Shown here: piece by piece, positions 27,529 through 30,845 of the stretch
How positions within the stretch are numbered: position 1 is the stretch's first letter
How the letters are laid out: each line of letters opens with the position of its first letter
DNA from: Cellulophaga sp. HaHa_2_95
Lineage (GTDB): Bacteria; Bacteroidota; Bacteroidia; Flavobacteriales; Flavobacteriaceae
Reading direction: 5' to 3'
Assembly: GCF_019278565.1 (NCBI RefSeq)
Contig: NZ_CP058988.1
Location: forward strand, 1,426,001-1,490,000
Length of the DNA: 64,000 bases
Program-made: the position numbers and the translations under genes
Notes under the pieces: generated by a model
What the model was told of the DNA's origin: nothing
Database searches by the model: none
What the model saw: only the letters and a program-made list of their open reading frames with translations

Positions 27529-27542
27529 GTAACCTAGGTTAC
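27529..27542. promoter_or_regulatory. GTAAC-N4-GTTAC operator candidate upstream of the SulP gene
   Basis: Perfect 14-bp palindrome GTAACCTAGGTTAC, extending to 16 bp with flanking A and T. It ends exactly 22 bp before the -7 box at 27565, centring near -40. The same layout occurs before the MBL/rhodanese gene. Confidence 0.75.
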
Positions 27543-27564
27543 TTAGAGAATTAAAAATTAAGCA

Positions 27565-27572
27565 TAAATTTG
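27565..27572 (+). promoter_or_regulatory. -7 box (TAaaTTTG) for the SulP gene
   Basis: TAAATTTG fits TAnnTTTG and ends 4 bp before the ATG. Transcription would start at or beside the ATG. No TTTG -33 box is seen; the palindrome occupies that place, as expected for an activator-dependent promoter. Confidence 0.65.
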
Positions 27573-27576
27573 ACGA

Positions 27577-29304
27577 ATGCAAAAATACATTCCGATATTG
27601 AAATGGTTGCCTACCTATGATAAGCGCAACCTTTCTAAAGATTTGATAGCAGGTTTTACCGTAGGAATCATTTTGGTTCCACAGGGTATGGCTTATGCTA
27701 TGATTGCAGGTTTACCACCTGTATATGGTTTGTATGCGGCACTTTTTCCGGTGTTAATGTATATGGTTTTTGGTACTTCACGGCAAGTGTCTGTAGGTCC
27801 AGTAGCTATGGATTCTCTTTTGGTAGCGGCTGGTTTAGGAGCCTTAAGTATTATTGGTATAGAAAATTATGTAGCCATGGCCATCCTATTGGCTTTTATG
27901 GTAGGAGTTATTCAGTTTTTATTAGGGGTGCTAAAAATGGGTTTTTTGGTAAATTTTTTGTCACGACCTGTTATCAGTGGTTTTACTTCTGCCGCGGCTT
28001 TTGTAATTATCTTTAGTCAGTTAAAACATTTATTAGGAGCGCCAATAGAAAGTAGTAAAATGTTTCATCAATTAGTGATCAATGCCTTTGATAAATTCGG
28101 AGAATCAAATTTGTATGATTTTGCGATTGGCTTATTAGGGATTATAATCATTTTAGTATTTAAGAAAATAAATAAAAAAATCCCAGCAATTTTGATAGTA
28201 GTAATTCTAGGTATTTTAGCTGTGTATGGTTTTAATCTAGAACAATACGGTGTTCATGTGGTAGGGGCAATTCCGACTGGACTGCCTATTTTTTCGCTGC
28301 CAACAATAGCCTTGGAAAATGTATTAAACCTGTGGCCCATAGCCTTAACCTTAGCATTAGTAGGATATTTAGAGACTATTTCCATAGGAAAAGCATTGGA
28401 AGAAAAATCAGGAGAAGAGACCATAGTTGCCAACCAAGAATTGATAGCTTTAGGTTTAGGGAATATTGTAGGATCTTTTTTTCAATCATACTCATCTACA
28501 GCTAGTTTTTCCAGATCTGCAATTAATGGTGAAGCAGGAGCAAAGACCAATTTATCGGCCTTGTTCAGTGTTGTTATGGTTATAGGAACCTTACTTTTTC
28601 TAACCCCCGTATTTTATTATTTACCTAAGGCTGCTCTAGCAAGTATAATTATGGTTTCTGTAATTGGGTTGATAGATGTGGCGTATGCTAAACAATTATG
28701 GCACAAACGAAAAGATGAATTTGTAGTATTGTTAATCACTTTTTTTGTAACCCTTTTTATTGGTATTCCTCAGGGAATTTTAATAGGGGTATTAAGTTCT
28801 CTTTTATTGATGGTATATAGAACTTCTAATCCGCATTTTGCAGTTCTAGGAAATATAAAGGATACAGACTATTATAAAAATATTACGCGGTTTGCAGATG
28901 AGGTAATCAATAGAGAAGACTTGCTTATTGTTCGTTTTGACGCACAATTATACTTTGGAAATGTAGGTTTTTTTAAGAACCAATTATTTAATGAGATTGA
29001 TAAAAAAGGTATTAAATTAAAAGGGGTAATTCTAAACGCAGAGGCAATTAATTATATAGATTCTACTGGAGCACAAGCTTTGACAAAAGTAATTAGGGAG
29101 ATTCACGATAGAAATATGCAATTCTATATTGCTGGCGCTATAGGACCTACCAGAGACATTATTTTTAATAGTGGAATTATCAATGAACTGCACAAAGAAT
29201 TTTTATTTGTAAAGATTAAAGAAGCAGTGGCTTGTTTTGATGACCCTAGCTCTGTCTCTAGTTTAAAGGGACGGGTAGCGTATCAAAATCAGTTTAGAGT
29301 GTAA
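27577..29304 (+). CDS. SulP-family anion transporter with STAS domain
   Basis: Inner-membrane permease of 575 aa, of the SLC26/SulP group that carries sulfate, bicarbonate or other anions. The N-terminal family signature is GFTVGIILVPQGMAYAMIAG, then LPPVYGLYAALFPVL. About 10-14 membrane segments run to residue 420. The C-terminal STAS domain (about 440-560) contains IDSTGAQAL, a regulatory phosphorylation-type motif. It is followed by the persulfide-dioxygenase-like gene, and the two share a palindrome and promoter layout. This suggests sulfur anions as substrate, though bicarbonate cannot be excluded. Confidence 0.93.
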   Translation: MQKYIPILKWLPTYDKRNLSKDLIAGFTVGIILVPQGMAYAMIAGLPPVYGLYAALFPVLMYMVFGTSRQVSVGPVAMDSLLVAAGLGALSIIGIENYVAMAILLAFMVGVIQFLLGVLKMGFLVNFLSRPVISGFTSAAAFVIIFSQLKHLLGAPIESSKMFHQLVINAFDKFGESNLYDFAIGLLGIIIILVFKKINKKIPAILIVVILGILAVYGFNLEQYGVHVVGAIPTGLPIFSLPTIALENVLNLWPIALTLALVGYLETISIGKALEEKSGEETIVANQELIALGLGNIVGSFFQSYSSTASFSRSAINGEAGAKTNLSALFSVVMVIGTLLFLTPVFYYLPKAALASIIMVSVIGLIDVAYAKQLWHKRKDEFVVLLITFFVTLFIGIPQGILIGVLSSLLLMVYRTSNPHFAVLGNIKDTDYYKNITRFADEVINREDLLIVRFDAQLYFGNVGFFKNQLFNEIDKKGIKLKGVILNAEAINYIDSTGAQALTKVIREIHDRNMQFYIAGAIGPTRDIIFNSGIINELHKEFLFVKIKEAVACFDDPSSVSSLKGRVAYQNQFRV

Positions 29305-29314
29305 CTAATGTTAC
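29301..29314. promoter_or_regulatory. GTAAC-N4-GTTAC operator candidate upstream of the MBL/rhodanese gene
   Basis: Perfect palindromic half-sites GTAAC and GTTAC around TAAT, overlapping the SulP stop codon. It ends exactly 22 bp before the -7 box at 29337, as at the SulP promoter. Confidence 0.75.
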
Positions 29315-29336
29315 TGATAACGTATGTAAGTTTATG

Positions 29337-29344
29337 TACTTTTG
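29337..29344 (+). promoter_or_regulatory. -7 box (TActTTTG) for the MBL/rhodanese gene
   Basis: TACTTTTG fits TAnnTTTG. No TTTG -33 box stands 17-23 bp upstream. The palindrome at 29301 is placed where a class II activator would bind. The leader to the ATG is about 85 nt. Confidence 0.65.
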
Positions 29345-29435: not shown

Positions 29436-30845
29436 ATGAAAATTGAACAAATATATACTGGATGCTTAGCACAAGGTGCTTACTATATTGAAAGTAAAGG
29501 AGAAGTGGCTATTATTGATCCGCTAAGAGAAGTAGGTCCTTATATGAAAAGGGCAGCGAATGATAAGGCGAAAATAAAGTACATTTTTGAAACTCATTTT
29601 CATGCAGATTTTGTTAGTGGTCATGTTACCTTAGCTAAAGAAACAGGGGCTGCAATTATTTACGGACCTAATGCAAACCCTTCTTTTGATGCTATAATTG
29701 CTACCGATGGTCAGGAGTTTACAGTAGGAGATATCACTATTAAGGTCTTACATACTCCAGGACATACTATGGAGAGTTCTACATTTTTACTAAAAAATGA
29801 AAATGGAAAAGACCATGCTATTTTCTCAGGAGACACCTTATTTTTAGGGGATGTGGGTAGACCGGATTTAGCCCAAAAAGCAGCAGATATGACGCAGGAA
29901 CAGTTGGCAGGAACACTGTTTGATAGTCTACGTAATAAGATTATGCCTTTGGCAGATGACGTTATTGTATATCCTGCTCATGGTGCAGGATCTGCATGTG
30001 GTAAAAACATGATGAAGGAAACGGTAGATACTCTAGGGAATCAGAAGAAAATGAATTATGCCCTTCGTGCAGATATGACAAGGGATGAATTTATAAAAGA
30101 AGTTACAGACGGACTTTTACCTCCTCCAAAATATTTTCCTCTAAATGTGAAAATGAACAAAGAAGGTTACGAAGATTTTGATGAGGTTCTAGAACGAGGA
30201 GCTACAGCTTTAACTCCAGATGCTTTTGAAGTAGCAGCGAATGAAACGGGTGCTATAGTGCTGGATGTTCGCCATCAAGATGATTTTGTAAAAGGACATA
30301 TTCCGCGTTCAATCTTTATTGGACTAAATGGTGATTTTGCTCCATGGGTGGGTGCATTAATTGCAGATGTTGATCAACCTTTATTGCTTGTAACTCCAGA
30401 AGGCAAAGAGGAAGAGGCAATTACTAGGTTATCTCGTGTTGGTTTTGATGGAACGATAGGCTTCTTAAAAGGTGGATTTGATGCTTGGAAGAAAGCAGCT
30501 AAAGATTATGACACGATTACATCGGTGCCAGCTTCTGAAGCCGTGAAGACCATAGCCGCAAAACATACTCCTGTATTTGATGTACGTAAGGAGACAGAAT
30601 TTTTATCAGAGCATGTGAAAAGTGCAGAAAACACGCCTTTAAGTTCTTTAAATGATTATCTAGCAGAATTTCCTGAAAAAGAAACATTCTTTGTGCACTG
30701 TGCAGGAGGATACAGGTCTGTTATAGCAGCATCTATATTAAAGAGTAGAGGAATTCATAACTTAATAGATGTAGCAGGTGGCTTTGCAGCTTTGAAAGCA
30801 GATGGAGCGGAAGTAACAGAGTATGTTTGCCCCACAACATTGTAG
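29436..30845 (+). CDS. MBL-fold / double rhodanese protein, persulfide dioxygenase-like
   Basis: Predicted sulfur-oxidising enzyme of 469 aa, cytoplasmic. The metallo-beta-lactamase domain (about 1-250) has THFHADFVSGH, the ETHE1/persulfide-dioxygenase version of HxHxDH, with GHTMESSTF and FSGDTLFLGDVGRPDL. Two rhodanese domains follow. The first (about 265-350) has no Cys in its active loop, replaced by VTPEGKEEE. The second (about 365-465) has FFVHCAGGYRS with the sulfur-carrying Cys. The family oxidises glutathione persulfide to sulfite, or handles low-molecular-weight persulfides. Neighbour SulP could move the sulfite or sulfate produced (inference). Confidence 0.93.
   Translation: MKIEQIYTGCLAQGAYYIESKGEVAIIDPLREVGPYMKRAANDKAKIKYIFETHFHADFVSGHVTLAKETGAAIIYGPNANPSFDAIIATDGQEFTVGDITIKVLHTPGHTMESSTFLLKNENGKDHAIFSGDTLFLGDVGRPDLAQKAADMTQEQLAGTLFDSLRNKIMPLADDVIVYPAHGAGSACGKNMMKETVDTLGNQKKMNYALRADMTRDEFIKEVTDGLLPPPKYFPLNVKMNKEGYEDFDEVLERGATALTPDAFEVAANETGAIVLDVRHQDDFVKGHIPRSIFIGLNGDFAPWVGALIADVDQPLLLVTPEGKEEEAITRLSRVGFDGTIGFLKGGFDAWKKAAKDYDTITSVPASEAVKTIAAKHTPVFDVRKETEFLSEHVKSAENTPLSSLNDYLAEFPEKETFFVHCAGGYRSVIAASILKSRGIHNLIDVAGGFAALKADGAEVTEYVCPTTL

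Follow-up and report, generated by a model that had tools for sequence, protein, structure and literature searches.

The locus studied here raises the question of which protein reads two short palindromes that stand at a fixed distance from the promoter boxes of two adjacent sulfur genes, and to what signal that protein would respond. The window, i.e., the whole 64 kb stretch of DNA that was analysed, corresponds to bases 1426001-1490000 of the 4.54 Mb single-contig genome of a Cellulophaga baltica-like bacterium. Two exact copies of GTAAC-N4-GTTAC are found in it, with the spacers CTAG (GTAACCTAGGTTAC, operator 1) and TAAT (GTAACTAATGTTAC, operator 2), against 0.03 expected, and none of 100 shuffles contained two. 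The preliminary description of this DNA had placed both palindromes ahead of two sulfur genes, 22 bp before a TAnnTTTG box, with no further copy in the window and no -33 box; all of this was borne out, as both palindromes are exact, exactly 22 bases intervene at each site, no third exact palindrome occurs in the 64 kb, and TTG is absent at -33 of both promoters (Table 1). The candidate regulator, hereafter REG, is a 210-aa Crp/Fnr protein whose start was chosen from homologues.

Table 1. Coordinates of operators, promoter boxes and genes; positions refer to the window unless marked as genome positions.
Feature	Position	Strand	Remarks
Operator 1, GTAACCTAGGTTAC	27529..27542	+	exact palindrome
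-7-like box, TAAATTTG	27565..27572	+	starts 22 bp past operator 1
SulP-family anion transporter, 575 aa (target 1)	27577..29304	+	TIGR00815 491 bits, cut-off 380
Operator 2, GTAACTAATGTTAC	29301..29314	+	exact palindrome; overlaps SulP stop codon
-7-like box, TACTTTTG	29337..29344	+	starts 22 bp past operator 2
Persulfide dioxygenase (PDO)-rhodanese, CstB-like, 469 aa (target 2)	29436..30845	+	assigned from domain order, solved relatives
REG gene	genome 2227724-2228353		outside window; stop codon 5 bases from rhodanese-gene operator
Own-genome sites in window			one before sulP, one before PDO-rhodanese gene
Two own-genome sites			between cydAB and SorA-like sulfite dehydrogenase gene
Own-genome site	genome 2227702		before rhodanese-HMA-Tll0287 genes (L020:10332-11650)
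Own-genome site			before dps
Own-genome site			before 485-aa flavoprotein gene, weakly SQR-like (54.6 bits, cut-off 525)
Own-genome site	genome 2954100 (L022)		before TolC-HlyD-RND efflux operon; exact box
Own-genome site			before peroxiredoxin gene, then second PDO-rhodanese gene
Own-genome site			before 125-aa ORF, then TonB receptor gene
Eleventh site, variant GTGACTTTAGTTAC	genome 1129318-1129361 (L224)		exact box; before DUF983 membrane protein gene

The product of the second window gene was assigned as PDO-rhodanese on the basis of its domain order and its nearest solved relatives, 3tp9 at E 1.4e-68 and 3r2u, which is S. aureus CstB, at E 3.9e-52; the PDO proteins gave no NCBIfam match above cut-off. 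The start codon of sulP lies 4 bases past its -7 box (27565-27577), compared with about 18 in relatives, in whose loci the median palindrome-to-start distance is 49, and the sulP mRNA is therefore predicted to be nearly leaderless. Operator 2 covers the final codon and stop of sulP with its 29301-29304 part, so that control of sulP and of the PDO-rhodanese gene would be separate yet abutting.

Genome-wide, 12 exact sites were found, 10 outside genes (counting the one that overlaps the sulP stop codon) and 2 intragenic. These raw counts show no excess over the reversed-pattern control, either for exact sites (12 vs 10), with up to one mismatch (167 vs 237) or for the operator-box composite with up to three mismatches (83 vs 94), as might be expected if the palindrome were an incidental or sigma-related promoter element unconnected to REG. 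What makes the motif significant is where its copies stand, their constant distance to the box, the genes around them and their conservation. In this genome, all 10 sites outside genes have a TAnnTTTG box (0-1 mismatch) at exactly 22 bp in the gene-facing direction, and at both intragenic sites the bases at gap 22 have at least 4 mismatches to it in either direction. The 14-mer of operator 1 recurs identically at genome position 2227702, ahead of the rhodanese-HMA-Tll0287 genes. The targets belong largely to one pathway, comprising SulP, PDO-rhodanese, a sulfite dehydrogenase-like protein, cytochrome bd (a sulfide-tolerant oxidase), rhodanese, the weakly SQR-like flavoprotein, peroxiredoxin and Dps; at a further composite with one mismatch (2935611), no sulfur gene is evident.

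Conservation was assessed in named REG-homologue loci, the best 80 of 281 (1.53 Mb in total), which share descent and are not independent samples. The exact palindrome occurs 292 times (reversed controls, 12), in every one of the 80 loci and in 290 distinct contexts; 276 copies stand between genes and have a gene start no more than 400 bp away, 6 are intergenic but lack such a start, and 10 lie in ORFs. An exact box was found at gap 22 in 139 of 584 site-directions, against 0.44 expected and at most 3 at every other gap; allowing up to one mismatch, the figures were 285/584 at gap 22 and 0-16 at the other gaps of the 0-36 range. Such a 0-1-mismatch box accompanies 270 of the 292 palindromes on at least one side, leaving 22 with none. 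Thus the fixed operator-to-promoter-box distance by which class II CRP/FNR promoters are recognized is present here, at exactly 22 bp. In 130 oriented sites, the interval itself shows little conservation; the one exception is a weak TG right after the palindrome, which may be what is left of a -33 element. Further, a de novo scan for 5-4-5 palindromes within 3 kb around 137 Arg-Val REGs (named after two recognition-helix residues, see below; some genomes entered twice) returned GTAAC first, with 212 copies, followed by ATTTT with 47; among boxed copies, GTAAC counted 196 and the next, GTGAC, 21. The preliminary description had named absence of the palindrome from orthologous promoters as evidence against its claim; with sites present across the 80 REG loci, the claim was not refuted.

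Counted as loci out of 80 with a site within 400 bp of the gene start, the commonest target in relatives is PDO (63/80, 75 site-gene pairs), followed by the TauE/SafE sulfite exporter (40/80), DUF983 (39/80), SQR (25/80; E 3e-104 to mitochondrial SQR), a fatty-acid-hydroxylase-family protein (FA-hydroxylase, 21/80), a YgaP-like membrane domain (18/80), SulP (17/80), a sulfur transporter (PF04143, 13/80), REG itself (13/80), peroxiredoxin (12/80), a sulfite dehydrogenase-like protein (6/80) and a SoxA/TsdA-type cytochrome (5/80), with CydA (4/80), DsrE, HMA and Tll0287 (3/80 each) at the end of the list. The sites proposed at the outset for relatives were thus found before sulP, PDO and SQR; those proposed before hcp-like genes were not (0/30 hcp loci, see below). 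HemN lies near a site in 12/80 loci and is probably just a divergent neighbour rather than a target, because the box is on its side in 1 of these 12; a methyltransferase gene near a site in 5/80 loci has a box in none. DUF983 is probably a sulfide-regulon protein, given that its gene is an operator target in 39 loci; many of its sites lie about 450 bp ahead of REG and may control REG too. In many of these loci, a small protein with a heavy-metal-associated domain and a protein with a Tll0287 domain accompany the sulfide genes. No locus had operators before both TauE and SulP, where 8.5 of the 80 would be expected if the two were independent (the loci being related), and in some Kordia loci a SulP gene without an operator stands beside a TauE gene with one; this suggests, and no more, that SulP can replace the sulfite exporter.

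REG has the features of the CRP/FNR superfamily, namely a cNMP-binding sensor domain and a Crp-type winged helix, and its model adopts the Crp fold (pLDDT 87), with 3dv8, Crp, Vfr and NtcA as leading PDB matches. Its gene ends next to the rhodanese-gene operator and is also about 4 kb (within 5 kb) from two further exact sites. A PF13545 search of the genome gave seven matches, five of them above cut-off; among the other Crp-like proteins of this genome none has the Arg-Val recognition helix of REG, and one (L016) has Arg-Gln. REG is 99% identical to a protein of Cellulophaga baltica DSM 24729 (L079). At least 8000 relatives were scored, and the 120 matches listed bear only generic Crp/Fnr names, one of which adds 'anaerobic regulatory protein'. 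The closest solved relative, and first by Foldseek E-value, is 3dv8, a Eubacterium rectale Crp/Fnr protein described as a 'putative transcriptional regulator'; it is about 23% identical to REG and shares the cysteines at C77 and C83, with Ile at C84. The clusters of 7 loci (L099, L101, L103, L113, L114, L124, L139) also contain a second protein of the Crp/Fnr type, a paralogue with 35-40% identity to REG that has an Arg-Glu helix and keeps only C77 of the three REG cysteines discussed below.

The association of operator and regulator was followed through 149 Flavobacteriaceae genomes, scoring the composite of operator, gap and box with up to 1 mismatch. Genomes with a close REG contain it in 81 of 82 cases (445 sites, mean 5.4; reversed control 27) and those with a moderately similar REG in 32 of 34 (84 sites vs 14), compared with 5 of 15 genomes with distant matches only (5 sites vs 3) and 3 of 18 without REG (4 vs 3). 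An incidental promoter element would not be expected to fall to control level with the loss of REG, nor to shift with the recognition residue as described next, and we consider that reading very improbable. For moderately similar REGs the operator link is weaker, because among 20 loci (of up to 14 kb) with Arg-Val REGs 45-51% identical, just 6 have the exact palindrome; a near-exact palindrome with a box was found in 8 of the 20.

Recognition-helix positions 180/181 have been linked to operator bases in this family (Rodionov et al., 2005; PMC1274295). In REG these are Arg-Val, with Arg in 101 and Val (the CRP-181 position) in all 102 distinct close homologues. In a Bacteroidota-wide sample the exact palindrome was present in 11 of 16 Arg-Val REG loci vs none of 11 Arg-Glu loci, and no GTAAC palindrome was found in 15 Arg-Glu (Val-to-Glu) loci of 16 kb, 10 of which have PDO, SQR, TauE, YeeE or CydA genes nearby. 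One Arg-Glu locus (L324) also has TolC/HlyD/AcrB homologues. By the published 180/181 rule, Arg-Glu REGs are expected to read GTGA. A first look at small windows around Arg-Glu REGs gave neither TGTGA-N6-TCACA nor an enriched 5-4-5 palindrome, and a second, a 5-4-5 scan with box in the 16-kb loci, gave just GTGAT and GTGAC, twice each. When all 4-6-4 palindromes in these loci were ranked by a box at the same offset, GTGA-N6-TCAC came first with 7 (second, 3), and its box distances peak at gap 22 (7 vs at most 2 elsewhere). This result, 7 sites in 6 of the 15 loci, came in the third look, though it was predicted by the published rule; five of the seven sites immediately precede a gene, for peroxiredoxin in two cases and for a sulfur transporter, a PDO or REG in the others. 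Distant Val-type REGs whose cysteines are reduced to C/G/G had 2 GTAAC palindromes in 5 loci. That residue and base change together is the best argument for REG itself, rather than some other protein, as the reader of the operator. With REG proximity and co-occurrence, it supports the initial proposal that a CRP/FNR-type class II activator may control a sulfide/persulfide regulon, and, as far as sequence comparisons can carry it, the pairing of this operator with this regulator over such a regulon appears very probable.

The motif and its layout have precedents. HcpR2, also of the Crp/Fnr family, has the published consensus GTAACnnnnGTTAC, which is identical to our motif and was found in the DNA preceding hcp in genomes of, among others, Clostridium, Bacteroides and Thermotogales; the HcpR2 regulon includes hcp, in most Bacteroides hcp alone (PMC1274295). 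REG might thus be an HcpR2-type regulator of NO/nitrosative stress whose regulon widened to sulfur genes, a reading with which cytochrome bd and Dps among the targets would agree. Nevertheless, position 181 of HcpR2 is typically Pro, with Ser or Gln in three species (PMC1274295), against Val in 102/102 for REG, and the core REG targets are sulfur enzymes. A link to hcp was also sought directly and discarded for this genome, which has no PF03063 match; neither palindrome nor REG relative was found in 30 Bacteroidota hcp loci (1.5 kb flanks), which came from 30 of 47 matching genomes among 198 and nearly all belong to one family. We therefore judge the nitrosative-stress reading unlikely.

The geometry, in turn, is that of NtcA class II promoters, described as GTAN8TAC, at several of them 22 nt from the -10 box, with a centre at about -41 (PMC3898017, PMC9430850). 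By alignment, NtcA and REG share the Arg-Val recognition helix; NtcA, however, takes 2-oxoglutarate as its signal and regulates nitrogen genes (PMC3898017, PMC9430850), whereas REG sits on sulfur genes with a TAnnTTTG-type box. The two are 21-25% identical in structure alignments, and REG was rejected as an NtcA equivalog (TIGR03697 37.8 bits vs a cut-off of 244.95).

Regarding the signal, three cysteines of REG, C77, C83 and C84, are invariant in 102 of 102 distinct close homologues and complete in 131 of 136 distinct Arg-Val homologues, the other 5 being without C83 and/or C84, as are several Glu-type REGs. They align with a segment of the CRP cAMP cassette, and in CRP that segment holds the cAMP phosphate. 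The loop is poorly modelled (pLDDT under 50 at residues 80-82). Such a cysteine-rich sensor cassette, together with cytochrome bd, peroxiredoxin and Dps as targets, could also belong to a Crp/Fnr regulator that responds to oxygen or to redox state in general and has sulfur genes among its outputs. NO or general redox stress would likewise be compatible with cytochrome bd, Dps and the TolC/HlyD/RND efflux operon as targets. In FNR, an iron-sulfur protein, an N-terminal cysteine cluster carries [4Fe-4S]; residues 1-76 of REG contain no cysteine and thus no such cluster. The commonest targets (PDO, TauE, DUF983, SQR, FA-hydroxylase, SulP and the sulfur transporter) are, moreover, narrow for a regulator of that kind, which makes a general redox role improbable as well.

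Persulfide-type sensing by REG appears rather likely. In CstR, SqrR/BigR and FisR, two or three cysteines sense reactive sulfur species and control sulfide-related genes, these being CsoR-like, ArsR-family and Fis-family proteins (PMC9774590), different from REG. The cysteines of REG, 102/102, and the persulfide-oxidation genes near its sites would fit a persulfide-sensing regulator. In the text of the same review (PMC9774590), 'Fnr' does not appear and 'Crp' occurs in the reference list only. A Crp-like protein of Acinetobacter baumannii, 50% identical to E. coli Crp, is persulfidated under sulfide, an effect of that modification not being known (PMC7315123); REG resembles it in belonging to the Crp family.

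Taken together, one Crp/Fnr-type protein very probably turns on H2S-detoxifying and H2S-burning genes at about ten promoters in this marine bacterium and at many in relatives, as judged from genome comparisons. A REG dimer would bind the palindrome with its centre about 40.5 bp ahead of the predicted transcription start, assuming that the -7 box spans -11 to -4, and would act as a class II activator beside the TAnnTTTG -7 box, in promoters with no proper -33; the Arg-Val pair of its recognition helix may read GTA..TAC as in NtcA. In the window, REG would thereby switch on sulP and the persulfide dioxygenase gene. The predicted regulon covers sulfide/persulfide oxidation and sulfite disposal, plus cytochrome bd and thiol-stress proteins. 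Because of the target list and the conserved cysteines, and by analogy with CstR, SqrR and FisR, the inducer is most likely a sulfide-derived persulfide or polysulfide, and the three cysteines in the former cAMP cassette would probably be what senses it, although for this cysteine mechanism the chances seem to us about even. As a whole, the reading of REG as class II activator of a sulfide/persulfide regulon via GTAAC-N4-GTTAC is the best explanation, and we hold it with good confidence.

Neither the DNA motif nor the class II layout nor the protein superfamily is new; a Crp/Fnr sulfide/persulfide regulon of Bacteroidota is, as far as searched, none being found in the literature covered, i.e., outside subscription journals and RegPrecise. 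The chances seem about even that REG represents a new class of sulfur sensor, in which the cyclic-nucleotide cassette of a Crp/Fnr protein was turned into a three-cysteine persulfide/polysulfide switch over a sulfide-oxidation regulon in much of Bacteroidota, with GTAAC and GTGA dialects set by one recognition-helix residue. The system offers a candidate regulator, an operator, a promoter geometry and a target list, all directly testable, and the two dialects provide a natural test of the Crp recognition code. Furthermore, a function is suggested for a large protein group with generic Crp/Fnr names among the matches listed, and DUF983 and fatty-acid-hydroxylase-family genes, which lack an assigned function, are tied to sulfide metabolism, in a phylum that plays a major part in polymer degradation, in sulfidic sediments among other habitats.
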